Positions 10,465 to 29,713 of a DNA stretch of 64,000 bases are shown here, piece after piece. The DNA is from Polynucleobacter antarcticus (GTDB taxonomy: Bacteria; Pseudomonadota; Gammaproteobacteria; Burkholderiales; Burkholderiaceae). Position 1 is the stretch's first letter. Every line of letters begins with the position of its first letter. The position numbers and the translations under genes are program-made. The notes under the pieces were generated by a model, which saw only the letters and a list, made by a program, of their open reading frames with translations, searched no databases and was not told the origin of the DNA. The DNA is taken from contig NZ_CP028941.1 in the NCBI RefSeq assembly GCF_013307245.1, positions 1,178,001 to 1,242,000 of the forward strand, written 5' to 3'.

Positions 10465-10497
10465 AGATTTACCTTAGAGTGGCTCAGTTTGTGAGCT
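10465..10497 (-). promoter_or_regulatory. Operator (inverted repeat) and -10 for zorABCD
   Basis: The 17-bp inverted repeat GGCTCAGTTTGTGAGCT (10481-10497) reads AGCTCA-N5-TGAGCC on the minus strand. Ten bases downstream sits the -10-like hexamer AAATCT (10470-10465), one of the weaker ones in the set. The same layout recurs at seven other sites in the window. No TTGACA-like -35 is present: its place falls inside the repeat. Confidence 0.65.
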
Positions 10498-10650
10498 TTA
10501 ATTTATACATCCCGCAATTGCTATTTTATTCGTTTATCAATCAAATAAGTTAATCGAGCATAAGATTACTTAAAACTTATTGAGTATATTTTTCCTAAAC
10601 TTTATTTAATGCAGTTAGCAAATTAACTGACCTCTGAGCATGTGATGAGG

Positions 10651-10863
10651 CTAGGGTAAGTGTGGCTCTTTAAATATTAAGTTAATGCCATCGATAGCTG
10701 ATTTTGACGACCAGCACTGTCCAAGGTGTCTTCCTTGACTTCCCGTACTGGGAAATCCAACCGACACCTTAACTGGCGGAATGGAGTAACCCATTCTTTC
10801 AAATAAGGGCTTGATGTGGGCTACTGCTTGATTTAGCCATTGTTCGCGAATGATTTCTGTCAT
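10651..10863 (-). pseudogene. Truncated SprT-like protein gene
   Basis: Only 70 residues remain. The start resembles SprT-like metallopeptidase-fold proteins common on plasmids and islands (REQWLNQAVAHIKPLFERMG, then VKVSVGFPSTGS and GRHLGQCW). The reading frame then runs out after INLIF into an unrelated KEPHLP tail and a stop. The HExxH-containing half that should follow is absent. The break lies on the side of the zorABCD operon, so the gene was probably cut when that module was inserted or rearranged. It is preceded by two intact small genes at short spacing. The family call is from memory of similar proteins. Confidence 0.6.
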
Positions 10864-10873
10864 TAGCTACTTT

Positions 10874-11071
10874 CTAATGATCTAAATAACTACGCTTTTC
10901 AGACATGCGCATGAAGTCTAAACTCAACGCCTTTGACTTTTTACGCTCCCAGTCTTCAGGAAAAGCAATATCTTGTTTAATTAGTAGTCCTAAGCGTATT
11001 TCCTCCCTATCCTCCATCTCATCATCAGTTGCAACGACAGTGATCTTTTCTCTAAAGTTATTGGTATCCAC
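10874..11071 (-). CDS. Small hypothetical protein
   Basis: A 65-residue, highly charged protein with no signal peptide or membrane segment (motifs ATDDEMEDREEIRLG and KSKALSLDFMRMSEKRSYLDH). I do not recognise a family. It starts 9 bases after the 11081-11416 gene and ends 10 bases before the truncated SprT-like gene, so the three form one operon driven by the operator at 11466. Support for being real comes from the tight spacing. Confidence 0.55.
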   Translation of the reverse strand: MDTNNFREKITVVATDDEMEDREEIRLGLLIKQDIAFPEDWERKKSKALSLDFMRMSEKRSYLDH

Positions 11072-11080
11072 GGGGAGTCT

Positions 11081-11416
11081 TTAACGATCGGCTTTAGCTG
11101 CATGGTCAAGGGAGATGTAATTGAGCCAATAGACCTTCATGCTTGGTCCAAAGATTTGATCAATCAAAATAGCGTCCACCTTAGCTGGGTCATCCTCATT
11201 CATTAAGGCGACCTTTAAGCCCTTCTCAATCAGAATCCGTTGATAGGCTCTTGCACTGTCATGGTCTTCAAAGGAAATCCGCACCAGATCATCGCCAATA
11301 GCTAGCGTACTCAGATCTTGTAAATCATAGATAAATTGACCGTAACCGCCTTTGTAGCGCTCAAATAAGGCGCCCTTCTTAATTAGTACCGTTACACCAT
11401 CTATTAATACAGGCAT
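11081..11416 (-). CDS. Hypothetical protein, first gene of a small regulated operon
   Basis: A soluble acidic protein of 111 residues, of unknown family. It has an alternating strand/helix pattern with a visible ISFEDHDSARAYQRILIEKGL segment reminiscent of small alpha/beta folds; I cannot assign a function. A good ribosome-binding site (GCGGAGGATC) lies just before the ATG at 11416. The inverted-repeat operator with its TAATCT hexamer sits about 35-66 bases upstream, giving a leader of roughly 27 bases. Two small genes follow at 9-10 base spacing. Confidence 0.62.
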   Translation of the reverse strand: MPVLIDGVTVLIKKGALFERYKGGYGQFIYDLQDLSTLAIGDDLVRISFEDHDSARAYQRILIEKGLKVALMNEDDPAKVDAILIDQIFGPSMKVYWLNYISLDHAAKADR

Positions 11417-11449
11417 AGATCCTCCGCGGGGTTGGCTATCAGAGGATTC

Positions 11450-11482
11450 AGATTAGGGGTTGGCTAGCTCACCTATCGAGCT
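11450..11482 (-). promoter_or_regulatory. Operator (inverted repeat) and -10 for the 11416 operon
   Basis: Inverted repeat AGCTCACCTATCGAGCT at 11466-11482, extended outward by TAG/CTA. Ten bases downstream on the minus strand is TAATCT (11455-11450). This is the most diverged of the eight copies (CGAGCT in one half) yet keeps the same spacing. Confidence 0.62.
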
Positions 11483-11625
11483 AGTTAGAGATCAAAAATG
11501 TATTTTTACCTCCTCCCTGAAGAAGAGAGGTGTGAAAATACTTAAAAAAATATGCCTAAACGAGCTACCCTTGCAAAAAAATATCGTTAGGAACTTCAAA
11601 CCAGTCTAAATCAAGGGTAATGGCA

Positions 11626-12498
11626 TTAGAAATTAGCTGAAGACTGAAATTTAGAAACAAAAGTTTTATATTCCGGTAAGCTTTTTATATGGCTATGATT
11701 CGGCTGATTGGCGTGACACCCAATGCAAAGACAGACCAAATTTTCAGGTCGGCAGTCATTTTTAAGGGCATTTTTATGGTGAACATGAAGGAAGTTTTTT
11801 AATTCTTCACTTAATTCAATACCACATCCAGGCTGTTGGCAACGATATCGAAGCTGACGCTTTAACTCCCTTGATATTTGATCCCAGTTTTCAGGGTAGT
11901 CATTAATAGGGGCAGTAGCAGATGTATAGACAGGAACTACGGGATGCAAAGACTTTGGATACTTTTCAAAAAATCGCTTTGGGGAAAATTTAGAAACTAT
12001 TGCGGACCTAGAATTTTTCGACATTTGATTGAAAAAACCATCCCAAGCTAGATTCTCTAAACAGTTTTGACATACATCTAATTTTGTAATTTTTAAGGGC
12101 CCAGTGTTGTAGCGTATATAAAAATTTCCATCCTCGGCTTCGGCTACAACATATTTTTCGAATCTACCTGATGATTTCATCTCAATAAGAGTTCTACAAT
12201 TTGAAATATGGAACCTCGGTATATGAGTGCGCCCACCATGGTCAGCTACATCACGAATATGTATTAAAACTCGCCTACCGTCAAAAATAAGAGTGCCATC
12301 GGGATAAGCCGATATTGAACCGAAATCAACATCTAAACCTTGTACCGGTATTAATACAGGCGGGGGCGGCGGTGGATCGCGTCTTTTAAATTGAGGGGCA
12401 GGCAAAACAATAGAAAGCTTATAAAAAGAGAGGGGGGCCTTGATTCTAGATCTCAAGCTATTTAATGAAGCGCTTTCAATAAAGTCAGGAAGTTTCAT
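11626..12498 (-). CDS. zorE: Zorya type II protein ZorE (HNH endonuclease)
   Basis: Nuclease effector of a type II Zorya system, 290 residues. An N-terminal run of six prolines (about residues 42-47) precedes a beta-rich region, then a CQNC pair. The C-terminal HNH nuclease (about 215-268) shows zinc ligands CQQPGC and CLCIGC, the catalytic VHH followed by KN, and the closing CHAN. It starts 8 bases after the zorB stop of the same operon. Type II Zorya consists of zorA, zorB and zorE, which is exactly the arrangement here. Because the adjacent zorB is frameshifted, the activity of this copy is uncertain. Confidence 0.88.
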   Translation of the reverse strand: MKLPDFIESASLNSLRSRIKAPLSFYKLSIVLPAPQFKRRDPPPPPPVLIPVQGLDVDFGSISAYPDGTLIFDGRRVLIHIRDVADHGGRTHIPRFHISNCRTLIEMKSSGRFEKYVVAEAEDGNFYIRYNTGPLKITKLDVCQNCLENLAWDGFFNQMSKNSRSAIVSKFSPKRFFEKYPKSLHPVVPVYTSATAPINDYPENWDQISRELKRQLRYRCQQPGCGIELSEELKNFLHVHHKNALKNDCRPENLVCLCIGCHANQPNHSHIKSLPEYKTFVSKFQSSANF

Positions 12499-12506
12499 TT
12501 TGCAGC

Positions 12507-13170
12507 CTACTTTATTGCAATGAGTTGATCGAGTCGATCGGAAGCATTAGTTACGATCCGAAATTCAACGCGTTGGTTGAGCTCAGGCTTAGGATTATTG
12601 GGGATAGGCTGGGAAGAAGAAAGTCCATTTGCCGTAATGTGTTTTTGAAACCATATCTCCTCATCTATAAATACTGGCAAAGACATAATAAACCTTAGAG
12701 TAGACCTCGTTCTTTCTTGAGATAAGCTCATATTTAAAAAATATGCCTCACTAGAAGAAACATCTTTCCAAGCTTTACTTGTGTGCCCTTCAATTCTAAT
12801 TTCTTTAATTGCACTCTTAAATTTATCACTACGAATAATTTTTATGTACCGAGGGAAAAAATCTCGTAACATATTTTGAAATTCAGGCCTCAGTTCAGAC
12901 GATTGAGTTGCAAACTGAACACTTGGATTATTAAATCGAATCGTCATATCTCCAAGTAATTCTGCGTCCCATTGCTTGAAGCTTTCTTTAAATTCATTTT
13001 GAAGCGCTAGCTGCATATTGCTTTTTACATCCTTAAATTCGTCAAGAACTAAAGTGGTTGTTTTTTCTAACATACTGAATGTAGACAGCTGTAATGAGCA
13101 TAAAAACCATCATTAGCCCTGTCATTAAATCAGCTAGGGGTATCCAATGAGCCTGTCTTGATCCCTCCAT
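12507..13170 (-). pseudogene. zorB: Zorya type II zorB, split by a one-base frameshift
   Basis: The start is ATG 13170, 4 bases after the zorA stop, with an AAAGGTG Shine-Dalgarno. The first frame encodes HWIPLADLMTGLMMVFMLIT, a stator membrane helix with Asp14, and ends at a TGA at 13044-13042. The OmpA-like part (188 codons, with EGHTSKAW and NQRVEFRI motifs) is in the next frame, open from an ATG at 13073. Dropping one A from the A6 run at 13066-13061 fuses them into a normal ZorB of about 220 residues. As it stands, the peptidoglycan domain is not tethered to the membrane. The cause could be true mutation, assembly error, or +1 recoding. Confidence 0.82.
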
Positions 13171-13174
13171 TTAA

Positions 13175-14443
13175 TTAAACACCTTTCGTCATGTTAACAA
13201 CATCACGAAGTCTTTCAGTTAAGGGCGTATAGTCCTGAACAAATTTTTCAGATAATGAGGCTAATTGCTGCCCCAAACTGACGAGAGCTTTTTCAAGCTC
13301 AGCTTCTAAATTTTTATCAAGAGTTTCAAAATTCTTTTTAAGTAACTCATTTGTATTTGAAATTTGATCGTTTACTTTATTTTGTATCTCGGGGACTGTT
13401 TTATTGAGCATTTCCCCAAATGTCTGAATCTGCTTCTTTGTCTCTTCTGTAAGAGAAATAGTTGAAGACTTAAAAGTTTCCGTCAGATCTTCTAGCTTAG
13501 AGGTAAAGGACGGCTCAACCGCTTTCATATCAATGAGGACTTTGGCTAAGGACTCCTGAGATTGAGACATGATTTCATATTGCGATTGAAACTGGGTCAG
13601 CAAATCACGAAGCTTAACTGCTGACTCAGTATATGCATCTGCATTATTAACAACAATCTTGAATGAATCGGATGACATCTTTAAACTTTCAGCACCATCT
13701 CTTTGGACAGCCTGAAGCTTATCCAGCTCTTCCTTATACTGCTGCTGCCAAGTAACAAGTTTTTCAACTGCGTAGTTGAGTTGTTTAAAATTTTCTCCAA
13801 ATTGTTCTTTGAGTTGAGTATTGAATTCATTTATTACTTTTTCAAGAGCAGCTATTAATGCTTTGGAACCCAATTCACTGACCTTATCAGCAAAATCATC
13901 AAGTGATTTACGCAAGCCAATTGCGTGATCATTTTGCTCTTGCCTCATTAATTTTATTTGACTGATTAAGCTAGAGTCATTTTCGCCTGCAATTGTTTTT
14001 CTCAATAAACTAATACCTGTTACTACATCATCCAAGCTTGCAGATTGAGGCTCATCACTACTACTCTGAATTGGAGCTGCCCCAAACCTTTGCCGCAGCT
14101 TGATTGCTAAGGCGCCAAATACTCCGCATACTGAGGCCCAAAAAGCAGTTTTTACCCCATTGAGTAACTGAGGTACTGAATTTGTAACATCCTTAGGATC
14201 AAAGCTTAATAAGGCAAGTGCAATCCCAACAAAGCACCCAAATATTCCCATAGTAGTAAGAATCTCTGGTCCATGAGTAGCCGCAAACCGATCATACTTA
14301 TAAACTAAAAGATAAAAGGTTGACCCCAAAATAGCTACCATAAAAAATACAGTGACTGGATCCTTAAGGATTTCTACAAATCCAATAGCCATCACCGTCG
14401 ATGAATAAGTTACTAAAAACAGAATAAAGGGCAGAATCTTCAT
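13175..14443 (-). CDS. zorA: Zorya type II protein ZorA (MotA/TolQ/ExbB-like)
   Basis: Motor subunit of the second Zorya system, 422 residues, shorter-tailed than the 653-residue type I ZorA at 8442. Predicted membrane segments lie at about residues 4-22, 30-48, 62-80 and 98-116. The motif GPEILTTMGIFGCFVGIALAL matches the TolQ/MotA core. The rest (about 145-422) is a helical coiled-coil tail. The C-terminal stop is 4 bases from the zorB ATG. The 290-bp region upstream (14444-14733) holds the operator of the divergent gene 14734. I see no clear promoter of its own for zorA. Confidence 0.88.
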   Translation of the reverse strand: MKILPFILFLVTYSSTVMAIGFVEILKDPVTVFFMVAILGSTFYLLVYKYDRFAATHGPEILTTMGIFGCFVGIALALLSFDPKDVTNSVPQLLNGVKTAFWASVCGVFGALAIKLRQRFGAAPIQSSSDEPQSASLDDVVTGISLLRKTIAGENDSSLISQIKLMRQEQNDHAIGLRKSLDDFADKVSELGSKALIAALEKVINEFNTQLKEQFGENFKQLNYAVEKLVTWQQQYKEELDKLQAVQRDGAESLKMSSDSFKIVVNNADAYTESAVKLRDLLTQFQSQYEIMSQSQESLAKVLIDMKAVEPSFTSKLEDLTETFKSSTISLTEETKKQIQTFGEMLNKTVPEIQNKVNDQISNTNELLKKNFETLDKNLEAELEKALVSLGQQLASLSEKFVQDYTPLTERLRDVVNMTKGV

Positions 14444-14678: not shown

Positions 14679-14711
14679 AGCTCATCTCTTGAGCCTTTAA
14701 TGCTCTATAAA
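14679..14711 (+). promoter_or_regulatory. Operator (inverted repeat) and -10 for the 14734 operon
   Basis: Inverted repeat AGCTCATCTCTTGAGCC at 14679-14695, ten bases, then TATAAA at 14706-14711. The predicted transcript would start about 16 bases before the ATG at 14734. The repeat also lies between this gene and the divergent Zorya type II operon, so it could influence both. Confidence 0.65.
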
Positions 14712-14733
14712 AGCTTTTTGCACAGGAGACTTC

Positions 14734-15171
14734 ATGACAGCTCAAGCATCAGAACGCCTCAAACGTGGCGATAAAGAATTGCGGATGTGTACTACCCCAC
14801 TAGATACTTACTTGCGCCAGTCCAATATTGAGTTCGAATCGTCTAATACTGCTAATTGGCGTGGGTATGTAGGCACCTGGGAAATTAAAGGTGCTGACGG
14901 CGTAGAGCGTCTTTACTTGGTGGGGCTTTCTGCTAATAAGTCTTATGAAGAAATTTTAAGCTTATCTGATCTTTTTCCAGATCATCCTAATGGTGTATTT
15001 GCTCACTGGTTTACTGGAGAAGTTCGCTGCCCTACTGGCAATCTAATCGACTATGTTCATGGGGGCTATGCCAGCAAGTATGAGTACGACTATTTCTTTG
15101 AATTTAAGAAAGGTGTTCTAGTAAATCAAAGGGCTGTTCACAACACGCTAGATGAGGATAAAGGTGCTTAA
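14734..15171 (+). CDS. Hypothetical protein
   Basis: A soluble protein of 145 residues, of unknown function. The C-terminal half has a distinctive set of aromatic residues and motifs (GVFAHWFTGEVRCPTGNL, then YVHGGYASKYEYDYFFEF). That pattern resembles a conserved hypothetical family in Proteobacteria which I cannot name. A strong Shine-Dalgarno (CAGGAG) precedes the ATG. It is followed by a membrane-protein gene overlapping its end by 20 bases, and it is under the shared operator at 14679. Confidence 0.65.
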   Translation: MTAQASERLKRGDKELRMCTTPLDTYLRQSNIEFESSNTANWRGYVGTWEIKGADGVERLYLVGLSANKSYEEILSLSDLFPDHPNGVFAHWFTGEVRCPTGNLIDYVHGGYASKYEYDYFFEFKKGVLVNQRAVHNTLDEDKGA

Positions 15172-15787
15172 TAACTTCGATCTACGTAACTTCAATCTAC
15201 TTAGCTTTGATTTAAACAACCTATGGCACTTAGCTGTCCTCTATGCTGGCTTGGGTTTATTGATTGCGCTCACTTTCTTTTTGTTGAGCCTTAAGGATAG
15301 GCCGTCTAGATCAGCCAGGCAGCTCATTCAAGCTATCCGCCCTAGAAAGGATCCTTTTTATTATTTAAAGGAGATCCTAGTTCAAGGGGTTGCCATCATG
15401 GCGATTGTTGTTGGATGGCCAGCATTCTTGGTATGGGCTGCATTACATAAGCGGAGTGAAGCTAGAGCCAAGATTGAGGCTGATGAGCCCAAATTTGATT
15501 GCCAACCTAGTCATTTACTTTATGCAGTAAGTATTAAGGAAGCTGAAGCAGAGAATTTCTATACAGATCCATTAGGAGGAACACCTGCTATTCCTTTTGG
15601 TCATCTCAATAAAGCTTGGCATATTTTTCTAGGGCAAAGAATCGATGGTGATCAATTGCGTGCTTATCGTATTCCCAAAGGTAGTCCCTTTGGTCGTCAT
15701 CTCTGGATGTCTGAAGGGGATGTGAGTGGCTATGCCCTGCTGCGTAATGGCGCTATCGTGGCTGAGTTTGTTTGCGAGGAGTCTTAG
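15152..15787 (+). CDS. Hypothetical membrane protein
   Basis: A protein of 211 residues with two predicted membrane helices: about 25-45 (WHLAVLYAGLGLLIALTFFLL) and 75-97 (VAIMAIVVGWPAFLVW). They are joined by a basic loop and followed by a soluble C-terminal region of about 110 residues. I do not recognise the family. The start is uncertain: ATG 15152 lies inside the upstream gene and GTG 15163 is an alternative. The overlap with 14734-15171 suggests coupled translation in a two-gene operon. Confidence 0.62.
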   Translation: MRIKVLNNFDLRNFNLLSFDLNNLWHLAVLYAGLGLLIALTFFLLSLKDRPSRSARQLIQAIRPRKDPFYYLKEILVQGVAIMAIVVGWPAFLVWAALHKRSEARAKIEADEPKFDCQPSHLLYAVSIKEAEAENFYTDPLGGTPAIPFGHLNKAWHIFLGQRIDGDQLRAYRIPKGSPFGRHLWMSEGDVSGYALLRNGAIVAEFVCEES

Positions 15788-15884
15788 AGCTCTTGTTGCT
15801 TAGCTTCATTTCTTAACTTTATTCCTACAAGACTTTCAGTAATATCTGATGTAATATGTGTATCATTATTGGTACGCTATTGGG

Positions 15885-16232
15885 ATGAGAACACCCATCC
15901 TAAATGTGCACTTTTATGAATCGGAACAAGGTCAAGAACCTGTAAAGCAGTGGTTGAGGCTTCTACCTCAAGGTGACAAGAAGTCAATTGGAGAGGATAT
16001 CAAAACAGTTCAGTTTGGTTGGCCTCTTGGAATGCCGCTCGTTAGGCATATGGGTGACCGTATTTGGGAAGTGAGAAGCAAAGTGGGTAACGGCATAGCT
16101 AGGGTGATGTTTGTACTTGATGGCAATTCCATGATCTTGATACATGGCTTTATCAAGAAGCAACAAAAGACGCCTAAACCGGATTTAGATTTAGCTAAGG
16201 AAAGAATTAAAAAGTTAAGGAATCGCTCATGA
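15885..16232 (+). CDS. higB: HigB/RelE-type toxin (Gp49-like)
   Basis: Probable mRNA interferase toxin of the RelE/HigB superfamily. I prefer the ATG at 15885 (115 residues, MRTPILNVHFYESEQG) to the upstream GTG at 15858. Visible family features are the YESEQGQEPVKQWL start, the basic core EVRSKVGNGIARVMFVLDG, and the HGFIKKQQKTP motif followed by a DLAKERIKKL helix. It overlaps the antitoxin gene by 4 bases (ATGA), the usual toxin-first HigBA order. The target and activity are inferred from family only. Confidence 0.85.
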   Translation: MRTPILNVHFYESEQGQEPVKQWLRLLPQGDKKSIGEDIKTVQFGWPLGMPLVRHMGDRIWEVRSKVGNGIARVMFVLDGNSMILIHGFIKKQQKTPKPDLDLAKERIKKLRNRS

Positions 16233-16516
16233 AGAAAAAACATATCGGCAGTAATTTTGATGACTTTTTAAAGGAAGAATCTCAATTTGAGAATGCTACT
16301 GCTGTTGCAGTTAAACGCGTCATTGCTTGGCAGATTGAACAAGAGATGGAAAAGCAAAAACTGACAAAGACACTCATGGCCAAGAAAATGCACACTAGCC
16401 GAGCAGCTTTAAATCGACTACTCGATGAAAGTGATACCAGCTTGACTCTAGTAACCCTAGCTAGTGCAGCAGCAGCTCTTGGTAAGAGCATTCAATTTAA
16501 GCTAAAGGCAGCCTAA
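16229..16516 (+). CDS. higA: HigA-type antitoxin (XRE-family HTH)
   Basis: Antitoxin partner of the preceding toxin, 95 residues. A helix-turn-helix is visible at about residues 45-85 (KLTKTLMAKKMHTSRAALNRL, then LDES and LVTLASAAAALGK). Antitoxins of this type neutralise the toxin by binding and repress their own operon. The ATGA overlap with the toxin ensures coupled expression. The neighbouring gene on the right is convergent and ends 25 bases away. Confidence 0.86.
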   Translation: MKKKHIGSNFDDFLKEESQFENATAVAVKRVIAWQIEQEMEKQKLTKTLMAKKMHTSRAALNRLLDESDTSLTLVTLASAAAALGKSIQFKLKAA

Positions 16517-16540
16517 GCCTCCTAAGTGGCTTTTCTTTTC

Positions 16541-19201: not shown

Positions 19202-19234
19202 ATTGTCTTGAGCCATAGGCTCATGAGATGAGCC
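19202..19234 (-). promoter_or_regulatory. Operator (inverted repeat) and -10 for the 19170 operon
   Basis: Perfect inverted repeat GGCTCATGAGATGAGCC at 19218-19234, then ten bases and GACAAT (19207-19202) on the minus strand. An extra TGAGCC half-site at 19209-19214 makes a second, tighter inverted pair with the first half. Confidence 0.68.
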
Positions 19235-19411: not shown

Positions 19412-19765
19412 CTAGGCCGCCTTAGCCAGCTTTTTATTTTCTGCTCTGATCTTTTGATTTTTTTGCTTCTCTAAAGCGTCTTGTGCAATCATTTTGTATT
19501 CACCATCCACAAAACGATTTAAGACCTCACGTATCAATGTTTGATAACCCAGCTCATGTTTGATACCAAGGAGTTTTAATGACTCAATCAAATCTTTGTT
19601 AAGTCGAATGGAGATCATTTGCATCCCAAGAGCGTCATCTATCTCTGTGGCAAGCTGAGAGGGCGCTAACACTGCATGCTCTGGGCTTTGTCCTAAGTCA
19701 CCATTTTCCCAATCCTCGGAAGAATCCACAAATTGGCTCATCAATTTTTTCTTAGTCATATTCAT
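19412..19765 (-). CDS. CopG/BrnA-type antitoxin
   Basis: A ribbon-helix-helix antitoxin of 117 residues. The DNA-binding core MQMISIRLNKDLIESLKLLG plus a GYQTLIREVLNRFVD helix is visible at about residues 48-90, preceded by an acidic, disordered region and followed by a lysine-rich tail. It starts 28 bases after the end of the toxin-like gene, giving toxin-antitoxin order as in BrnTA. The family assignment comes from the RHH core; the exact subfamily is unsure. Confidence 0.78.
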   Translation of the reverse strand: MNMTKKKLMSQFVDSSEDWENGDLGQSPEHAVLAPSQLATEIDDALGMQMISIRLNKDLIESLKLLGIKHELGYQTLIREVLNRFVDGEYKMIAQDALEKQKNQKIRAENKKLAKAA

Positions 19766-19793
19766 CCTTAATTAATCTAGATCTCTGCTCTGT

Positions 19794-20081
19794 TTATTTA
19801 GCATTTTTGTATATACACAATTCTACCATATTTGGTGGATATATAGTTTTTAAGTAGATAAAGCCCTCCTTAAATACACATACAATCTTCAAAGTCAGAT
19901 TTTGGTGGTTTTTAGATATAAACCAATAGGTAGGTGGTGTTGTTTTGTTTTTTGCCCTTCTATCCTCTAAATATCGAGCTTCCAGATGATTGTAAAAGCA
20001 CTCCTCAACATCAACTCGACTTAATTGGTGCTTATCCCAGATATGCTTTAGTACTGCTGGACTTGTAATAAGCTTGTTCAT
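19794..20081 (-). CDS. BrnT-like toxin
   Basis: A small protein of 95 residues resembling BrnT/RelE-fold toxins. Segments include an N-terminal VLKHIWDKHQLSRVDVEECF helix pair, a central YWFISKNHQNLTLKIVCVF strand region and a terminal YLKTIYPPNMVEL. The pattern of a helical start followed by beta strands and a KT.YPPN end is common in this family. It pairs with the RHH antitoxin immediately downstream. An AT-rich promoter region lies at 20082-20150. The activity is inferred. Confidence 0.68.
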   Translation of the reverse strand: MNKLITSPAVLKHIWDKHQLSRVDVEECFYNHLEARYLEDRRAKNKTTPPTYWFISKNHQNLTLKIVCVFKEGFIYLKTIYPPNMVELCIYKNAK

Positions 20082-20192: not shown

Positions 20193-20225
20193 GGCTCACT
20201 TCCTGAGCCACTGCCCTCCTATCCT
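20193..20225 (+). promoter_or_regulatory. Operator (inverted repeat) and -10 for the NNF-repeat gene operon
   Basis: Perfect inverted repeat GGCTCACTTCCTGAGCC at 20193-20209, ten bases, then TATCCT at 20220-20225. The predicted transcript starts about 20 bases before the ATG at 20252, just ahead of an AAAGGAG ribosome-binding site. Confidence 0.68.
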
Positions 20226-20251: not shown

Positions 20252-20563
20252 ATGAAACAGCTAGCCACCCTACTTATTTGTCTTGGTCTTTTTGGCAAAT
20301 ATGCTTTAGCACAACAAGCCTTAAATTTTGAGAGCTCGCCTTACAACTTTCAAAATAGCATCAACAACTTTCAAAATAGCCCGAACAACTTCAATAACAG
20401 CCCCAATAACTTCAACAATAGTGCGAATAACTTTAACGCTACTAATGGGGTCTATAACAACGAAGGCAATCGCATAGGTTATGAGGTCACTGCACCGTCT
20501 GGTGTGACTAATGTCTTTGATAACCAGGGCAATCGAATTGGCTACTCCCCTAGCAAGAGATAG
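20252..20563 (+). CDS. Small exported protein with Asn/Phe tandem repeats
   Basis: A protein of 103 residues with a signal peptide (about 1-20, cleavage after ALA). Residues 24-70 are six tandem copies of a seven-residue unit of the type NNFQNSP or NNFNNSA. The C-terminus carries two copies of an 8-residue motif, EGNRIGYE and QGNRIGYS. The design suggests a secreted or surface-exposed repeat protein; I do not know a function. It is first in a two-gene operon under the shared operator and ends directly before the next gene (TAG then TTG). Confidence 0.72.
   Translation: MKQLATLLICLGLFGKYALAQQALNFESSPYNFQNSINNFQNSPNNFNNSPNNFNNSANNFNATNGVYNNEGNRIGYEVTAPSGVTNVFDNQGNRIGYSPSKR
20344..20455 (+). 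repeat. Tandem 21-bp coding repeats
   Basis: Roughly 21-bp imperfect direct repeats with the core AACTT(C/T)AA(T/A)A encode the NNF units of the exported protein. Copies at about 20344, 20365, 20386, 20407 and 20428 differ by a few bases each, so the array is not freshly amplified. Confidence 0.7.
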
Positions 20564-21178
20564 TTGATCGTGGCTAATGAGATAAGTAGTCAGAAAGATG
20601 GCGATATGCAGGGTGAAATGCAGATTGATACCGAAGAGTTTTTAGCGGTATTAAAACGGTTAAAGCCTAAGAAGATCACCAAAGCCTCGTTAGCAGAGGA
20701 TCTGTATATCGCCCTATTTAATGGTGAGGCTATCTTTTGTGTTCGGGGTATACAAACAAAGTGCCTGATTGAAAAAGGTCATTGGGATGGTTACATTACT
20801 GTAAATGCGGGGGTGGTTCAGTCTTTCTTGACAGCCAGGCCTAAAGGTCTAGTAGTGACTCTTAAGGTCAAAGGTAATCTGTTTCAGATTGAGAATCTGA
20901 AGGTTCCTTGTAAGACGATGCAGTCACCGGAGTGGATTACAGCGATGAGCTTTGAAGCCCATCTGCATGATGATTTACAAAAATCACCCGCTAAGATTGA
21001 TCGCTACTGCCCCAAGTGCGGAAAAAAGCGTGGAGAATATTTAAAGCTTAAGCTGGCTCAGAAGACCTTAATTGATGACCCGCTGCCCTCAAAGCGCCCG
21101 CCGAAGTATCCTAGCACCAGAAAATGCTCAGCTTGTTCTTATGAGTGGCTGGAATGTGATGACTTAGTGGATGAATGA
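20564..21178 (+). CDS. Hypothetical protein with C-terminal zinc ribbon
   Basis: A protein of up to 204 residues. The N-terminal two thirds have no domain I recognise (IDTEEFLAVLKRLKPKKI and VNAGVVQSFLTARPKG segments). The C-terminus has two cysteine pairs, CPKCGKKRGEY and CSACSYEW, 40 residues apart, forming a likely zinc ribbon. The start is uncertain: TTG 20564 directly abuts the previous stop and GTG 20570 is an alternative. It is co-transcribed with the NNF-repeat gene. A 12-bp direct duplication (ATGAATGAGTAG) covers the end of the gene and gives tandem stop codons. Confidence 0.62.
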   Translation: MIVANEISSQKDGDMQGEMQIDTEEFLAVLKRLKPKKITKASLAEDLYIALFNGEAIFCVRGIQTKCLIEKGHWDGYITVNAGVVQSFLTARPKGLVVTLKVKGNLFQIENLKVPCKTMQSPEWITAMSFEAHLHDDLQKSPAKIDRYCPKCGKKRGEYLKLKLAQKTLIDDPLPSKRPPKYPSTRKCSACSYEWLECDDLVDE

Positions 21179-21812: not shown

Positions 21813-22175
21813 TCAGTGCACTACGGCCTCCGCTACTTTAGGCTTTCCCTCAGGATCTTTCTTTTGGCTTGTGACTAAAAATTCTTTTGTTTCAAGGGCT
21901 ACCTTGAGGTACTCATCTATGGCCACTCTAAAAGCATCATGGGTATCTTCTTGACCAAAGATATAGGTCAGGCTATAGATGAGGTTGTCAGCATCTACAC
22001 CGTCTACGGTAACAGTATTGCTCTCTTCGTTATCTACTACTCTTAAGCCTCTACAGAACTCAGGCTTTTCACTATCAACCCAACTCATATCGAGTCGATC
22101 AATATCAAAGCGCAGGCTTCTAAATAGGTTATTGATGGTAAAACGAGATCCATTGATAAAGGTGTAGTCACGCAT
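21813..22175 (-). CDS. Hypothetical protein, first gene of a regulated operon
   Basis: An acidic soluble protein of 120 residues, of unknown family. Features are a beta-rich N-terminus (YTFINGSRFTINNLFRSLRF) and a helical second half (IYSLTYIFGQEDTHDAFRVA). A strong AGGAGG ribosome-binding site precedes the ATG. The shared operator with a good TACAAT hexamer lies 30-62 bases upstream. The downstream genes are the broken membrane protein and the 21235-21564 paralogue. Confidence 0.63.
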   Translation of the reverse strand: MRDYTFINGSRFTINNLFRSLRFDIDRLDMSWVDSEKPEFCRGLRVVDNEESNTVTVDGVDADNLIYSLTYIFGQEDTHDAFRVAIDEYLKVALETKEFLVTSQKKDPEGKPKVAEAVVH

Positions 22176-22204: not shown

Positions 22205-22237
22205 ATTGTAAAAAATAACTGGCTCATATATTGAGCC
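22205..22237 (-). promoter_or_regulatory. Operator (inverted repeat) and -10 for the 22175 operon
   Basis: Perfect inverted repeat GGCTCATATATTGAGCC at 22221-22237, ten bases, then TACAAT (22210-22205) on the minus strand. The repeat abuts the stop codon of the upstream gene at 22238, so the promoter sits directly at the end of another operon. Confidence 0.7.
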
Positions 22238-23487: not shown

Positions 23488-23520
23488 AGCTCAAAATATG
23501 AGCCTATGGCAAGGCAGAAT
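23488..23520 (+). promoter_or_regulatory. Operator (inverted repeat) and -10 for the WYL gene
   Basis: Inverted repeat AGCTCAAAATATGAGCC at 23488-23504, ten bases, then CAGAAT at 23515-23520. The position in front of the WYL regulator suggests autoregulation. The divergent RNA promoter lies about 55 bases away, so both could be affected. Confidence 0.66.
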
Positions 23521-23552: not shown

Positions 23553-24524
23553 ATGAGTGACCTAGAGCGACTACACCGCATCAAATACATGATCCAAGCA
23601 CGTAAATGTGTGCCGATTGATGACTTTCTCTCTGAGCTAGAGATCTCTAAAGCAACCTTTAAACGTGATCTGGAATACCTACGCGATCGTATGAATGCCT
23701 CTATCGTTTTTGATCGTGCCGATGGGGGTTATCGCTTTGACAAACCTAATCTTGGTGAGAAGTTTGAATTACCTGGGCTGTGGTTTAACGAAAAGGAAGC
23801 CACTGCCCTAGTGCTCATGCAACACATGCTCTCGAACTTAGATCAAGGCGGCTTAATTGGCCCCCACATTGATCCCTTAATGGAAATTATTGATGGGATC
23901 ATGGGTCAGACTGAAACCTCCGCTAAAGAGCTGCGTAAGCGGATTAAGGTCTTTGGCATGTCTGCCCGCAAGAATTCTTTAGAGAGCTTTGAAGAGATTG
24001 GTGTTGGCTTGCTAAAGCGTAACCGCTTAAATATTTCGTATTACTCTAAAGGTAAGGATGAGGCTACTGAGCGCGATGTGTCCCCTCAACGCCTCATCTT
24101 CTACCGTGATAACTGGTACCTTGATGCCTTTTGCCATCTGCGTAATGACTTGCGGAGCTTTGCAGTAGACGGGATCAAAAAGGCCACAGTACTTAATACA
24201 AAGGCACAAGAAATCGCTGAGAAGACCTTGCAAGAGAATTTTGCCGAGAGCTATGGCATCTTCTCTGGAAAGGCTACCCAAAGAGCCAAGCTCCAATTTA
24301 CGCCAGAAAAAGCACGGTGGGTCTCTTCAGAAACTTGGCATGGTCAACAAGTCAGTAGCTTTGATAAGGAAGGTAATTACCTTCTAGAGTTTGATTACAA
24401 CCAAGATCCTGAGTTAGTGATGGAAATTTTAAAGCACGGTAATGGCGTCCAGGTATTAGCTCCAGCCGCTCTTCGAAATAAAGTCATTAGCGAACTTAAG
24501 AAAACCATTTCAGTCTATGAGTAA
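23553..24524 (+). CDS. WYL-domain transcriptional regulator
   Basis: A protein of 323 residues. An N-terminal winged helix-turn-helix (about 1-65: LERLHRIKYMIQARKCVPID, then ISKATFKRDLEYLRDRM) is followed by a WYL domain (about 145-220: LNISYYSKGKDEATERDVSP, RLIFYRDNWYLDAFCHLRND with the WYL-equivalent WYLDA) and a WCX-like C-terminal domain. WYL proteins such as BrxR and CapW are known regulators of phage-defence loci and often bind inverted repeats. The shared 17-bp operator lies in front of its own promoter and seven others in the island, so I infer it is the regulator. It overlaps the following alarmone hydrolase gene by 8 bases. Confidence 0.9.
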   Translation: MSDLERLHRIKYMIQARKCVPIDDFLSELEISKATFKRDLEYLRDRMNASIVFDRADGGYRFDKPNLGEKFELPGLWFNEKEATALVLMQHMLSNLDQGGLIGPHIDPLMEIIDGIMGQTETSAKELRKRIKVFGMSARKNSLESFEEIGVGLLKRNRLNISYYSKGKDEATERDVSPQRLIFYRDNWYLDAFCHLRNDLRSFAVDGIKKATVLNTKAQEIAEKTLQENFAESYGIFSGKATQRAKLQFTPEKARWVSSETWHGQQVSSFDKEGNYLLEFDYNQDPELVMEILKHGNGVQVLAPAALRNKVISELKKTISVYE

Positions 24525-25080
24525 TACATCATCTTCACCCTCTCCTTCAGTTGGTAAGCTTGTCAATGCCATTGCATTTGCTGCGGATAAACATAAGTCT
24601 CAGCGTAGAAAGGATGCTGAGGCATCACCGTATATCAATCACCCAATTGGCCTTGTAAACGTCTTGGTCAATGAAGGCGGAATTATTAACAATGATGTGC
24701 TGTGTGCTGCCGTCCTACATGACACCATTGAAGATACCGAGACTACTGCACAAGAACTCAGTTCGCACTTTGGTGAAAAGATTGCCTCTATCGTGATGGA
24801 GGTAACTGATGATAAGAATCTGCCAAAGGCTGAGCGTAAGCTTCAACAAATTGCACATGCAGTGCATAGCTCTCATGAAGCCAAGTTAGTCAAACTTGCA
24901 GATAAGATCTGCAACCTTCGGGATATGCTTGCTTCTCCCCCAGCAGGGTGGGATTTAGTTAGAAGAAAAGCCTATTTTGATTGGGCTGATCAAGTCAGCA
25001 ATGGACTTAAGGGCACCAACTCTAAACTTGAGAATATCTTGAAATCGTTAATTGCACGTAGCTCAGAACTCAAGCAGTAA
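24517..25080 (+). CDS. Small alarmone hydrolase (MESH1-like HD domain)
   Basis: A single-domain HD phosphohydrolase of the RelA/SpoT hydrolase type, 187 residues. Visible metal-binding motifs are YINHPIGLV, the HDTIEDTET box (HD plus ED), and a later KLADKICNLRDM. There is no synthetase, TGS or ACT domain, so it should remove (p)ppGpp or a related nucleotide rather than make it. The start ATG overlaps the WYL stop by 8 bases, which implies a coupled two-gene operon under the WYL-linked operator. It may be a signalling or housekeeping partner of a defence island; that role is inferred. Confidence 0.86.
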   Translation: MSNTSSSPSPSVGKLVNAIAFAADKHKSQRRKDAEASPYINHPIGLVNVLVNEGGIINNDVLCAAVLHDTIEDTETTAQELSSHFGEKIASIVMEVTDDKNLPKAERKLQQIAHAVHSSHEAKLVKLADKICNLRDMLASPPAGWDLVRRKAYFDWADQVSNGLKGTNSKLENILKSLIARSSELKQ

Positions 25081-25100
25081 TAGGATCGTTACTTTAAGTA

Positions 25101-25887: not shown

Positions 25888-25901
25888 TTCAGAGCAAAGA
25901 G

Positions 25902-26222: not shown

Positions 26223-26279
26223 ACTTAATGAACCCATAATTTACCTTTTTGATCTTTATTAGATTTGTAGCATCACTTA

Positions 26280-27299
26280 TTACTCAATTGATACTTGCCC
26301 AATCACTGCTCCTGGCTTATTAAGGGCTTCAGCACGCTTGGCAATGTACTCTGGATTTCTTGACCCAAGCAGACCCAACTGCTTTTGGGTTCCATCGGCT
26401 GATTCCACTATTACCGTGTCTGGTCCTACTGCTCTTACTGAGTCCATCATGCTGCCATCCATCTTGGTAGCAGGACGCACATTCATCTTAAGGGTGGGCG
26501 CTTCTGGTGGAACGAGTGCCTTTTCTACTGATGAGCCACTTTGACTAAGCGGTGGGATCGCAGCAGGTTCAGGTCTCAGATTGGTACTTGGTGCAATGGG
26601 AGGCATTGTTTGCGCTGGGGCTACTAATGCAGGCGCTGATTGTTCCTTGGCCTGCTCTCTCGTTTGATCTTTATTTTGATCCTTAGCTTGATCCTTGGTG
26701 ACATTGTCTAGCTCTTTAAATGCTTCGCCAGATCGATTCTGAATCTCTTTGCCTGATTTGACTGCATTCTTTTGTCCCATTGGTAATGCTACGAGGACAT
26801 AGGTCCGAATACGATTACCTTCTGCCACGTGTTTCATCTCTACTGTCTCGACACCAGAGATATCTACATCAGGGCATAGACTACGCACTGTCAGTTCAGA
26901 CTGCTCTACTGAAGCGGCATCATTATCAGCGCGGTACATCTTCATTTGGCTTCTTACTTTTCCACCAGCGCCAGTGCAAATCTTCACATAGGCCATCGTC
27001 TTGGCTTTTAAGTCCGCCATTGAAAAGTCACTACTAATAGCAGTACCGTTCTCGTAGATCACACCTGCCTCTTTGGGTAACTTGTACATCCAGGCTGGCG
27101 CTTCGCTAATAGCCTGTTTAGCTACTTTAGATTGTGCTCGGTACTCGTCTTGCTGATTGGATTGCGCCTGCTGTGCTGGGTTGGTGCCGCAAGCACTTAA
27201 TAAAAGACCCAATACACTACTCACTGCGATTAATCTCAATTGGGATTGAGAATGTTTCTGAAGTTGCTGCTGCTGTTGCTGCTGAAGTTGCTGTTTCAT
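26280..27299 (-). CDS. Lipoprotein with glutamine-rich N-terminus (LPP20-like)
   Basis: A protein of 339 residues. The first 20 are glutamine-rich (a run of seven Q), then a hydrophobic segment and a lipobox LLSAC with Cys37. After cleavage the protein would be a lipoprotein. About residues 65-180 resemble LPP20-family lipoproteins (an APAWMYKLPKE start and a YVLVALPMG end); this is tentative. The rest is low-complexity, with repeated DQ/KEQ and proline-rich segments. It is the third gene of the operon beginning at 29648. Confidence 0.66.
   Translation of the reverse strand: MKQQLQQQQQQQLQKHSQSQLRLIAVSSVLGLLLSACGTNPAQQAQSNQQDEYRAQSKVAKQAISEAPAWMYKLPKEAGVIYENGTAISSDFSMADLKAKTMAYVKICTGAGGKVRSQMKMYRADNDAASVEQSELTVRSLCPDVDISGVETVEMKHVAEGNRIRTYVLVALPMGQKNAVKSGKEIQNRSGEAFKELDNVTKDQAKDQNKDQTREQAKEQSAPALVAPAQTMPPIAPSTNLRPEPAAIPPLSQSGSSVEKALVPPEAPTLKMNVRPATKMDGSMMDSVRAVGPDTVIVESADGTQKQLGLLGSRNPEYIAKRAEALNKPGAVIGQVSIE
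27249..27299 (-). repeat. CAG-rich low-complexity coding repeat
   Basis: Repeated CAG/CAA codons encode the glutamine-rich start of the lipoprotein. Such a run could slip during replication and move the start in or out of frame, but within this one sequence the frame is intact. Confidence 0.6.
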
Positions 27300-27333
27300 A
27301 ATAGTTACTCCTTAAATAAAATTAAAAATATGG

Positions 27334-28182
27334 TCAAAACTTATCGACTACAGTCCACTGGTTTATTCCTGAACGTACTGCTACTAAGGTAAAACGCACT
27401 GCTTGGTTTTGATGAATCTCTGTTTTTGATGCCAATTGATAAATGTTTCCTCGCCACCTACGTAAACTAGATTTAGCTTGGCCATCACTCATCTCTTTTG
27501 GGGTAAAGCTAATGTGCTCACCAACCCGAATAAAGGGCTTATCAGCTACATAAGGAAAATTGGTACAGATCTCTCTTCTCGTAGAGGTTTGGTCATTACT
27601 CAGATCGCTATTGCGATAGCCCACCTGTTTAACCGCTATCTTTGCTTCTGTGATCTCTTCAAAGTAACAACGCGGTGTGGACTGAGGGGCAGCGTTAGGG
27701 ACCGCTTGAAGATCTGCTTTGATCACTTCTCTACTGACTTCTGTTCCCTGACAAGCAAAGCGCAATGACCAAATACGGTATTTGGCGAGCGAGTAATAGC
27801 TTTTGCTAATCTTGTCTGGATAGCTATTCCCTTCCACCCCGCTCACCATATAAAAACGGTTACGCTTGAGTTGCTCTTCTAATAGCGCTACTTGTTCGGT
27901 ACGTTTCTCACAATTGGGCTCAAACCGGACAAGATCTTCATAACTAAGGCGTTCAAAGTTAGATACGGCAATAGGTGGGCTAGTGATCGGTCTTGCCGGA
28001 GTCGTTGATATGACTCTTTGAGCAGGCCTTTGGTAGATGTTTTGGTTGGTATAGCTGTAAGTAGGCGTACTGTAGGTCCGCGCTGGAGCACTATAGGTGG
28101 GCGTGCTGTACGACTGATAGCGCGGCTTACTAGCGCACGCTACCAGTGTTAATGCAGATATTAGGCAAAGCAGCAGTTTCAT
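27334..28182 (-). CDS. Hypothetical lipoprotein with Ser/Thr/Tyr/Pro-rich segment
   Basis: A protein of 282 residues with a signal peptide and a lipobox LVACA (Cys16). Residues 20-65 are rich in Y, S, T and P with repeated YSTPTYS units, probably an extended linker. The rest is a folded region of unknown family with several cysteines (FEPNCEKR, FACQG, PRCYFEE, REICTNF), which may form disulfides. The ATG overlaps the 28179 gene end by 4 bases, so the two are coupled. Confidence 0.64.
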   Translation of the reverse strand: MKLLLCLISALTLVACASKPRYQSYSTPTYSAPARTYSTPTYSYTNQNIYQRPAQRVISTTPARPITSPPIAVSNFERLSYEDLVRFEPNCEKRTEQVALLEEQLKRNRFYMVSGVEGNSYPDKISKSYYSLAKYRIWSLRFACQGTEVSREVIKADLQAVPNAAPQSTPRCYFEEITEAKIAVKQVGYRNSDLSNDQTSTRREICTNFPYVADKPFIRVGEHISFTPKEMSDGQAKSSLRRWRGNIYQLASKTEIHQNQAVRFTLVAVRSGINQWTVVDKF

Positions 28183-29648
28183 GATGCGGCTTTAGCTCCC
28201 CCATCAAAACCCATTCCATAATTACCACCAAGGTCTACTACCTTTGTAGTGTGTGTTGGAGCACTTGAAGTCTCATTGGCACTTTGTACGCTTGCTGAGA
28301 ATGGCTTGCTCGCCATTGCAGTGGCTGGCGTCACCACTCGATTTACAAACTGGGTTGATGCCTGATTAAAGCCGTTGCTAAATTGCTGTTGCATACGGCC
28401 ATAGGTGCTATTTTTTCGCTTGAGCTCTTCTAGTTCAGCTTTGAGCTTTTCTTTTTCTAAATCTTGAGCTACTTTTTGATAGCCAATCTTGGACTCATAC
28501 TCTTGCTCTGTAGAGTATTGCCTCTTTCTGACCATCTCTTTTTCATGTTGAGCAAGTTCAAGCTCTGCCTCTGAAGCTATTCTCTTGCTTGAGCTTTGGT
28601 TCATTTGCGCAAATGTTTTGGTCTTGGTTTCGTAAGCAAAGAGTGCCATGCGATGGCCTAGACCTGATTGCCCTGCTTGTAGTTTGAGCAAAATTGGCAT
28701 GAGCTCTAAACACAACTGCAACAAGGTAATTAATAAATATTTGAAGAACACCCCTGGGCTATGCGTAACGAGGGATGAGAGCACATCAGCTGAAGCCACG
28801 TTGATATAGGCTTCATCGATTTGACTAGATTTATTGAGATCAACTACGATTTCTTTTTTAGCACTCTCCACTTCAGCCTGTGCTGTAGTAATAGCCGCGC
28901 CCATTTGAGCTAGTTCAGCTTCTCTAGGGTTGACATAAGCTCTATAGGCTGCTCGATAGGCGCCATCAATCCGCTCACACTCCCGCTTATCTTTAGCATA
29001 GAGGTTAAGAATTTCATTCTCATCAAGATCGGGTGCAAATGTCGTTCTGGTTTTTCTGTTGTAATCAGCAAAGCAATAATTGACTTGATTACGCTGACGA
29101 ATAATCTCCGGCGTTAATACCTGGATTTCTTTTTTGAGCCTAGTCTCACGTTGCTCAAGACTTGTTACGTTATTGGCCTTATCTTTTAACTCGTGCTTTT
29201 CTTGATAGCGCTCTTTAGCGTCGCTATAACGTCCATTTTTCATATCTTGGGCATGAATCGCTAACTCGGACTTTAAAAACAAAGGCATCGTGAATTGACT
29301 ACTGAGTGAACCAATCACCGTAATCAGAAAGATACGAATACCTAGATAGACATAGGTGAGCTTTTTATCGGTTTCATAACGTGTATCGGCTAGATAGATA
29401 AAGTTACGATCCAGCACGAGGACAATGCCCGCACCGATCATGGCAAACGTGCAGGCCATCAAGATTTGCAGGGATGTATGCAAATCCATCGCCAGGAACC
29501 AACCGGCTATGCCAAATTGCAATGCTGCTAGAAAGCTGGCAAAGGCAATGGCCACTCCGATTTTGCTTAGGCTACCCACTTCTTCTGCAGTGGCATTAGC
29601 AGCAATGCGGTGACCAGTTAAAAAAACGAGTTGTTGCCTGATAGTCAT
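28179..29648 (-). CDS. Membrane protein, DUF4407-like
   Basis: I place the start at ATG 29648 (MTIRQQLVFLTGHRIAAN, 489 residues), because the longer frame from 29690 would begin upstream of the predicted transcription start. Three membrane segments lie near the N-terminus (about 29-50, 57-78, 93-112) and one after a long coiled-coil loop (about 300-325), followed by an alanine/glutamate-rich coiled coil and a glycine-rich tail. This resembles DUF4407 membrane proteins of unknown role. It is the first of seven co-oriented genes ending at 25111, which include two lipoproteins, so an envelope-associated complex is plausible. Confidence 0.7.
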   Translation of the reverse strand: MTIRQQLVFLTGHRIAANATAEEVGSLSKIGVAIAFASFLAALQFGIAGWFLAMDLHTSLQILMACTFAMIGAGIVLVLDRNFIYLADTRYETDKKLTYVYLGIRIFLITVIGSLSSQFTMPLFLKSELAIHAQDMKNGRYSDAKERYQEKHELKDKANNVTSLEQRETRLKKEIQVLTPEIIRQRNQVNYCFADYNRKTRTTFAPDLDENEILNLYAKDKRECERIDGAYRAAYRAYVNPREAELAQMGAAITTAQAEVESAKKEIVVDLNKSSQIDEAYINVASADVLSSLVTHSPGVFFKYLLITLLQLCLELMPILLKLQAGQSGLGHRMALFAYETKTKTFAQMNQSSSKRIASEAELELAQHEKEMVRKRQYSTEQEYESKIGYQKVAQDLEKEKLKAELEELKRKNSTYGRMQQQFSNGFNQASTQFVNRVVTPATAMASKPFSASVQSANETSSAPTHTTKVVDLGGNYGMGFDGGAKAAS

Positions 29649-29680
29649 ATACCCACCCACTTGGTTATCTTGATGAGTGG

Positions 29681-29713
29681 AGTATTTCAAGTGAGAGGCT
29701 CATAGATTGAGCT
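29681..29713 (-). promoter_or_regulatory. Operator (inverted repeat) and -10 for the DUF4407-like operon
   Basis: Inverted repeat GGCTCATAGATTGAGCT at 29697-29713, ten bases, then AATACT (29686-29681) on the minus strand. The predicted start of transcription near 29675 argues for ATG 29648 as the first start codon. Confidence 0.66.

Follow-up and report, generated by a model that had tools for sequence, protein, structure and literature searches.

A palindromic promoter element shared across a Polynucleobacter antarcticus defence island and its probable regulator, an island-encoded WYL-domain protein

Genes and candidate operators at the locus

The window analysed here is a 64,000-nt stretch of the genome of Polynucleobacter antarcticus (2,154,412 bases). 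It contains a type I Zorya operon, a gene for a WYL-domain transcription factor, DUF4407 and transglutaminase operons and several operons without known function, each associated with one copy of the palindrome RGCTCR-N5-YGAGCY. The features are as follows.

2241..10403, minus strand: type I Zorya operon (ZorA, ZorB, ZorC and ZorD models)
10465..10470, minus strand: -10-like hexamer AAATCT, 10 bp from the repeat
10481..10497, minus strand: candidate operator (motif match) of the type I Zorya operon, whose ORFs run from 10403 down to 2241
11450..11455, minus strand: -10-like hexamer TAATCT
11466..11482, minus strand: candidate operator of an operon of three small ORFs without known function (from 11416 downwards)
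14679..14695, plus strand: candidate operator of operon 14734-15787, without known function (present in 3/5 islands)
14706..14711, plus strand: hexamer TATAAA, the sole one of the eight without T at position 6
19202..19207, minus strand: -10-like hexamer GACAAT
19218..19234, minus strand: candidate operator of the operon for a 100-aa protein and a DUF3857-transglutaminase (reaching 16541)
20193..20209, plus strand: candidate operator of operon 20252-21178, without known function
20220..20225, plus strand: -10-like hexamer TATCCT
22205..22210, minus strand: -10-like hexamer TACAAT
22221..22237, minus strand: candidate operator of the conserved 120-aa gene 21813-22175
23488..23504, plus strand: candidate operator of the WYL gene itself
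23515..23520, plus strand: -10-like hexamer CAGAAT
23553..24524, plus strand: WYL-domain transcription factor, 323 aa, the proposed regulator
24517..25080, plus strand: HD_4-domain protein, overlapping the WYL gene and presumably co-transcribed with it
29681..29686, minus strand: -10-like hexamer AATACT
29697..29713, minus strand: candidate operator of the DUF4407 operon (~29648 down to 25447)

An exact search with this pattern recovered the eight sites described in an earlier note at the positions given there, and these are the only exact matches in the window. The hexamers are likewise as described, with A at position 2 in 8/8 and T at position 6 in 7/8. Two Zorya systems are encoded in the window; the inclusion of a Zorya operon among the units sharing the site stands for type I, at which the hexamer-bearing flank points, but not for type II, since the flank of site 14679 toward the type II genes reads TATTGA. 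The TTG starts listed for ORFs 29690 and 19185 probably lie too far upstream; in-frame ATGs at ~29648 and ~19170 agree better with the promoters. Next to site 29697 lies a gene for a stand-alone sigma-region-4 protein. No attachment repeat longer than 14 bp, matching the tRNA-Ser end and its adjoining 60 bp, was found in the 61.5 kb examined, so that integration at this tRNA gains no support.

Confinement of the sites to one island

The eight exact sites in the window compare with a mean of 0.05 and a maximum of 1 in 100 dinucleotide shuffles, and permitting one mismatch gave 10 matches where 1.74 were expected. A scan of the complete genome, as proposed in the earlier note, found 10 exact sites, every one within C1:1161346-1207713 (46 kb), two of them to the left of the window and beyond its edge; the reversed pattern gave 0 matches in the same scan. 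The sites are thus concentrated in the island rather than occurring at chance frequency, and the absence of the motif from the housekeeping part of the window extends to the whole genome. At 9/10 of the genome sites a hexamer NANNNT stands at a distance of exactly 10 bp, and the central 5 bp and the flanks vary among the eight sites of the window. The set of eight is real and belongs to a wider pattern that recurs in several species.

Across genomes the bare motif has a background of about one match per genome, which is partly explained by recurring matches that are probably conserved coding sequence. One such background match, AGCTCAGCGGACGAGCT, occurs with identical letters in four genomes and probably belongs to this class.

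Promoter geometry

The fixed spacing was assessed in five Polynucleobacter islands, four of which were picked for their many sites. Among gene-directed flanks, NANNNT occurred at offset 10 in 39/51 (about 5.5 expected) and the stricter TANNNT in 25/51 (1.7 expected), and no offset other than 10 was enriched, whereas the remaining flanks, not directed at genes, carried NANNNT at offset 10 in 3/19. At 8/35 sites the arrangement was two-sided, with a hexamer 10 bp away and a gene beyond it in either direction. Outside the genus the hexamer stood at offset 10 in 33/108 flanks and at offset 11 in 19/108, with 6.1 expected.

A TTGACA-like -35 element was sought at spacings of 15-19. Five or six positions matched in 0/39 promoters and four positions in 4/39; about 2.5% of random windows match TTGACA at five or six positions, so that about 1/39 would be expected. 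The statement that the -35 position never resembles TTGACA accordingly holds in the sense that such elements are no commoner than in random windows. The earlier note had left undecided whether the repeat serves an activator or a repressor; the single enriched spacing and the lack of any excess of -35 elements favour a putative activator over a repressor.

Association of the sites with the WYL gene

A genome-wide search for this WYL family gave a single match at E <= 0.001, a threshold that a very distant second WYL protein could escape, and this match sits in the 46-kb site-bearing stretch. Three ORF families of at least 60 aa are common to all five site-rich islands, and only the WYL protein among them has a Pfam family. 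An exact site lies 42-81 bp before the start in 25/30 genus orthologues of the WYL protein and is missing in 5/30.

The evolutionary link also appears in the species counts for Polynucleobacter, which are not phylogenetically independent: at least three promoter-type sites occurred in 38/49 species with a WYL match and in 6/72 without. The 44 genomes with at least three such sites encode the WYL protein in 38 cases, the 120-aa protein in 22 and the 100-aa protein in 21. Among the sites listed for 12 single-contig genomes, 45/52 lie within 50 kb of a WYL gene, where 3.7 were expected. Six genomes have at least three sites and no detected WYL gene, each with 3-4 promoter-type sites; G022, G091 and G107 are drafts 83-85% complete, and G019, G063 and G065 are 99-100% complete. 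Conversely, 5/49 genomes combine a WYL gene with at most one promoter-type site, including G124 (53% WYL, no such site).

Co-occurrence by itself does not single out the WYL protein, because all 21 genomes encoding the 100-aa protein have at least three sites (21/21). The 100-aa and 120-aa proteins were nevertheless set aside as regulators, having no Pfam family and a weaker or narrower co-occurrence. The sigma-region-4 mini-protein was also rejected as reader of the motif, its close relatives being present in few genomes only.

Among 65 relatives of the WYL protein outside Polynucleobacter (46-54% identity, mostly in Betaproteobacteria), a site lies at most 150 bp upstream of the WYL gene in 20, and this upstream site is missing in 45/65; a site just beyond the end of the gene was seen in 16/65, and a site at either position in 29/65. 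For Polynucleobacter-type loci the survey of sites at WYL relatives gave 11/15. WYL loci numbered 586 in all, of which 80 were retained. The site before the WYL gene persists down to about 50% protein identity, and some site-bearing promoters outside the genus point at cas3, recC and ssb. Searches with the WYL protein gave 391 plasmid records, all below 60% identity (best, Variovorax, 43.5%), and one relative in a viral collection (42%).

Confinement to the island and recurrence in the islands of other species support the suggestion of a shared regulatory site for island cargo. Taken with the co-occurrence of the WYL gene and the site before that gene itself, they speak for a regulon whose likely regulator is the WYL protein, named in the earlier note as a possible binder.

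The WYL-domain protein

Pfam assigns to the protein encoded at 23553-24524 a WYL domain (73.6 bits, cut-off 21.8) and a WCX domain (59 bits, cut-off 23.9), with no Pfam match in the N-terminal part. In the AlphaFold model, residues 1-62 form a predicted winged helix-turn-helix (helices 3-17, 22-29 and 33-45 and a strand pair, pLDDT ~73-91), and the N-terminus aligns with winged-helix regulators, among them NiaR and TtgV. Residues S32, A34, T35 and R38 are unchanged in 34/34 family members. Helices 80-96, 103-118 and 124-130 are predicted between this domain and the WYL domain, where DriD has a three-helix bundle, but in a region of low confidence (pLDDT 53-58). The domain order of the model is that of DriD, which is also the best structural match (Foldseek E 1e-15; BrxR and CapW 1e-9 to 1e-10), with full-length superpositions at an rmsd of 10-17 A.

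Alignments with the WYL protein place the RxxR motif of PafBC-type ssDNA binding in the PafC and DriD chains. The first arginine is kept in 34/34 members of the present family, while A, S or G replaces the second in 34/34. This half-missing arginine pair raises the question of which signal the WYL domain reads.

Proposed mechanism and alternative explanations

The palindrome is probably the operator, with the proposed consensus RGCTCA-N5-TGAGCY, of an island-encoded homodimeric WYL activator that would switch the island units on together upon a signal. A homodimer is consistent with the palindromic site, and a homodimeric activator is suggested because the geometry, with a site over the -35, a fixed -10 distance and a poor -35, is that of DriD. 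The WYL homodimer would place one winged helix-turn-helix on each half-site and, centred near -31, cover the -35 region. In a DriD-like manner the bound protein would then assist RNA polymerase at promoters with a -10 and no -35. The signal sensed by the WYL domain would probably be of nucleic-acid type, indicating phage attack or DNA damage, and would result in joint expression of the type I Zorya, DUF4407 and transglutaminase operons, several uncharacterised operons and the WYL gene itself. In these freshwater bacteria one promoter design thus serves phage-defence genes and many uncharacterised genes of an island and most likely responds to a single sensor encoded there, which could allow the whole island to be activated together.

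It is rather unlikely that the WYL protein acts instead as a repressor of the BrxR and CapW kind, hiding the -35 until a phage or damage signal frees the promoter. Both of those proteins are described in the available texts as WYL repressors encoded with defence systems, the BrxR operator as an inverted repeat whose halves are 5 bp apart (PMC9122601), and the palindrome here does overlap the expected seat of sigma region 4. Repression would, however, require a working promoter beneath the operator, yet -35 elements show no excess over random DNA, and it would not require an exact -10 distance, yet offset 10 alone is enriched. The BrxR repeat also lies downstream of the -10 in the same source (PMC9122601), whereas the present one is upstream. 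DriD is a better structural match than BrxR or CapW, a point of little weight since the fold is common to all.

Considerably less probable is that another island or host factor, such as a dedicated sigma factor or the 100-aa or 120-aa protein, reads the palindrome, the WYL gene being a mere target. The restriction of the 100-aa protein to genomes with at least three sites and the position of the sigma-region-4 gene beside site 29697 would agree with this; yet the two small proteins lack Pfam matches and are encoded in no more than half of the 44 site-rich genomes (21 and 22, respectively), the site remains beside the WYL gene outside the genus, where the survey covered WYL relatives, and its two-fold symmetry fits a dimeric helix-turn-helix protein better than a sigma -35 element. 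A reading without any regulatory function, in which the repeats stem from a mobile or RNA element or have clustered by chance, is hardly credible: every site does lie on one island of variable content, but the central 5 bp and the flanks differ, the eight sites far exceed the 0.05 expected, and sites precede genes at one -10 spacing in many species, also outside the genus.

Implications for defence-island regulation

Joint switching of defence-island systems is a largely open question, BrxR and RptR being, as far as the available texts describe them, repressors of one or two promoters. It can now be tested, because the promoter is conserved and recognisable. If the WYL protein is its activator, the promoter design names a regulator and predicts start sites and targets, and uncharacterised genes could be nominated as defence genes from the promoter alone. 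More speculatively, an immune regulon may extend across Betaproteobacteria, built on a WYL activator whose ligand pocket is non-standard and on a plug-in promoter, often two-way and made up of the palindrome, a 10-bp gap and the -10, that is carried or acquired by unrelated defence cargo (Zorya, Mza-type and helicase systems, cas3, recC, ssb). One sensor would then command a mixed arsenal, and the uncharacterised genes behind the promoter would be candidate new defence systems. A search covering part of the literature found no paper that describes the motif, nor any that deals with a Polynucleobacter WYL regulator.

Comparison with known regulators

The comparisons that follow are with the systems as described in the available portions of the cited papers. 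The closest parallel is DriD of Caulobacter crescentus, a homodimeric WYL activator (PMC12340889, a preprint). Its sites cover the -35 and keep a single distance to the -10, and its promoters have poor -35s, three features that the present promoters share. The operator sequence of DriD differs from the palindrome, and its own gene is described as not activated (PMC12340889), whereas most orthologues here have a site before their own gene. The present system further differs in having numerous targets gathered on a single island together with defence genes, in the two-sided hexamers and genes at 8/35 sites, and in the missing second ligand arginine.

PafBC of mycobacteria is likewise a WYL activator through which the housekeeping polymerase uses promoters without the usual -35 contact, and mutants in its arginine pair lose ssDNA (PMC11804915). 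It consists, however, of two unlike subunits with a motif at ~-26, in contrast to one gene and a palindrome near -31 here. SiwR of Mycobacterium smegmatis resembles the proposed regulator as a homodimeric WYL activator with a palindrome upstream of the -10 (PMC10693628), but that palindrome is imperfect and 19 bp long and serves one adjacent operon under genotoxic and oxidative stress, and the available text describes no multi-operon island regulon.

Among regulators encoded with defence genes, BrxR (PMC9122601) and CapW (PMC9122588) belong to the WYL family. BrxR is a repressor with two sites on its island and a repeat downstream of the -10 (PMC9122601), and the placement of the BrxR and CapW operators on a complete promoter is not matched here, where the repeat precedes the -10 and -35 elements show no excess. 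RptR offers the likeness of a dedicated regulator and operator kept with defence genes, but it is a small repressor acting through a TAGCTA site at a single island promoter (PMC12255303).

A palindrome with a fixed promoter geometry

The 17-bp inverted repeat RGCTCR-N5-YGAGCY had been reported at eight positions in the window, each with a candidate -10 hexamer starting 10 bp away, and a re-scan recovered all eight sites and hexamers as described, against 0.05 sites expected from 100 dinucleotide shuffles. The whole genome of Polynucleobacter antarcticus, a single contig (C1) of 2,154,412 bases, contains 10 sites, every one at C1:1161346-1207713, and the reversed pattern, used as a control, gave no match in the same genome. 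On this contig the window occupies C1:1178001-1242000.

Five islands were compared, the window's own and those of G004, G018, G016 and G010, chosen for their site clusters among 36 other genomes of the genus. They hold 35 exact sites in total, and 51 of the 70 flanks (two per site) face a predicted ORF start at most 300 bp away. NANNNT was found at offset 10 in 39 of these 51 flanks, against 5.5 expected per offset, and TANNNT in 25 (1.7 expected); no other offset from 0 to 35 exceeded threefold enrichment in the same flanks. Where no ORF start is faced, NANNNT occurred at offset 10 in 3/19 flanks. This enrichment is not circular, because the site-search pattern left the hexamer out. Both flanks carry hexamer and ORF at 8/35 sites, and a single palindrome can therefore serve two promoters. 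Taking the hexamer as the -10 element would place the repeat at roughly -39 to -23, centred near -31 and over the -35 position. TTGACA-like hexamers at a spacing of 15-19 were no commoner at the promoters than in random windows. A third half-site within the 10-bp spacer was seen in 3 of the 39 promoters, all of the operon of a conserved 100-aa protein:

19202-19217, third half-site GGCTCA of the 100-aa operon (also at G018 512988 and G016 1322655)

The WYL protein and the sites

All five islands share three families of ORFs with a length of 60 aa or more: the 100-aa and 120-aa proteins, in which no Pfam family was found, and a protein with WYL and WCX domains (23553-24524, +). Within the genus, 49 of 121 genomes have a match to the WYL protein, mostly at 66-80% identity, including three with partial matches (G077, G096, G099); G024, G030 and G115 were matched solely through a 42-43% paralogue. 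When promoter-type sites were tallied in the same 121 genomes, the mean was 4.9 per genome with the WYL protein versus 1.0 without, and at least three sites were present in 38/49 versus 6/72 genomes. The 120-aa protein is found in 29 of the 121 and the 100-aa protein in 21; among the 44 genomes with at least three sites, WYL is present in 38, the 120-aa protein in 22 and the 100-aa protein in 21. All 21 genomes carrying the 100-aa gene have at least three sites, as a target gene would. Among the sites listed for 12 single-contig genomes, 45 of 52 lie within 50 kb of a WYL gene.

An exact site is located 42-81 bp upstream of the WYL start in 25 of the 30 orthologues fetched. One of the other five, L075, has a one-mismatch site instead, and L060 and L079 carry sites farther upstream on the same contig. 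Among the best 80 of 586 WYL relatives in a genome collection, a site lies at most 150 bp upstream of WYL in 11/15 loci of the genus and close kin, and in 20/65 other loci. The latter encode proteins 46-54% identical to that of the window; most of these loci bear the label Betaproteobacteria, and a few metagenome bins are labelled otherwise. A site 918-1034 bp past the WYL start, just beyond the gene end and ahead of the next gene, is present in 16 of these 65 loci, and 29 have a site in either position; by letter count, about one such site per million positions is expected by chance. At these distant sites, counting both sides of each, NANNNT occurs at offset 10 in 33 and at offset 11 in 19 of 108 flanks (6.1 expected), and 1 to 13 times at each remaining offset from 0 to 29. 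The promoters outside the genus retain the geometry. Six WYL paralogues of the genus (about 42% identity, L114-L119) have a related but different upstream palindrome, close to AGTCACCCCATGAGACT, and possibly constitute with it a second regulator-operator pair.

Candidate target genes

Site-bearing units in the window include a type I Zorya system (identified with models from PADLOC and NCBIfam, several of the NCBIfam scores falling under the equivalog cut-offs), the DUF4407 and DUF3857-transglutaminase operons, small uncharacterised operons and a WYL-HD_4 pair. To the left of the window, sites accompany a MarR-like and outer-membrane operon and a MerR-like and von Willebrand operon. A site in G004 points towards an operon matched by MzaB, C, D, E and B models, and one in G018 faces a PDC-S37/Hhe-like helicase across a 278-bp leader. 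Outside the genus, promoters of this type face cas3 (L166, L169, L170), recC (L195), ssb (L179) and a gene for an RNase H-AAA helicase protein (L204); the remaining targets, listed mechanically, are uncharacterised, HD-type or doubtful ORFs. Our impression is that the targets are enriched for defence genes. No site lies directly upstream of the island's type I restriction genes. A second Zorya system, of type II, is found beside type I, without a clear site of the WYL-type regulon:

11626-14443, -, type II Zorya with ZorA2 and ZorE models and an OmpA-domain protein

Other features of the region

Beside the site at 29697 lies the gene of a stand-alone sigma-70 region 4 protein, with a Pfam match at 2.4e-12. 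The CTGT-N8-ACAG box upstream of this gene, one of two in the window (0.9 expected), resembles a LexA site. Seven of the protein's eight closest relatives in other genomes are in genomes with a WYL match (G018, G134, G090, G067, G096, G062, G100), several beside islands; the eighth genome, G139, has no WYL match. Further features are:

29902-30090, +, sigma-70 region 4 protein, 62 aa (Pfam)
29758-29773, CTGT-N8-ACAG box upstream of its gene
15858-16516, +, toxin-antitoxin-like pair, Gp49-type and helix-turn-helix proteins
19412-20081, -, toxin-antitoxin-like pair, CopG/BrnA-like protein beside a 95-aa ORF
1284-1607, -, 107-aa fragment with weak likeness to a phage integrase end (E 0.018)
C1:1161440-1163740, to the left of the window, 766-aa ORF with the appearance of a phage terminase split by an intein-like stretch

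Likely mechanism and comparison with known WYL regulators

The structure model of the WYL protein (mean pLDDT 75) contains a wHTH, a linker, three helices, WYL and WCX, the domain order given for DriD of Caulobacter crescentus in a preprint (PMC12340889). DriD tops both structure-match lists, followed by BrxR, CapW and PafBC; domain placement in the model is not trusted, because full-length superpositions give high rmsd. According to the same preprint, DriD sites lie over the -35 region at a single distance from the -10 element, the -35s are poor, the activator holds polymerase, and ssDNA triggers activation. The island promoters match this description in site position, fixed -10 distance and poor -35. 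The site, the spacing, the missing -35 and the tie to the WYL gene were shown here; we infer that a WYL dimer would bind the palindrome over the -35 region and, once activated by a signal, would switch on these -35-less promoters in the manner of DriD.

PafBC of mycobacteria requires two arginines three apart for ssDNA, as described in PMC11804915. In 34 sequences of the WYL family, the first counterpart is Arg throughout, and at the second position Arg does not occur. A role of ssDNA as the signal is doubtful, since PafBC needs both. Six other arginines tested (Arg 156, 158, 174, 180, 185 and 197) are conserved in 31-34 of the 34, which leaves room for a different mode of ligand binding or for ssDNA bound in another way.

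A literature search of partial coverage found no published account of the regulon. The sites and the WYL protein most likely form a real regulon, with a named proposed regulator and a promoter design consistent with a known activator class. Compared with the known activators it would represent a new variant, in its operator, many targets, two-sided promoters and changed ligand pocket.
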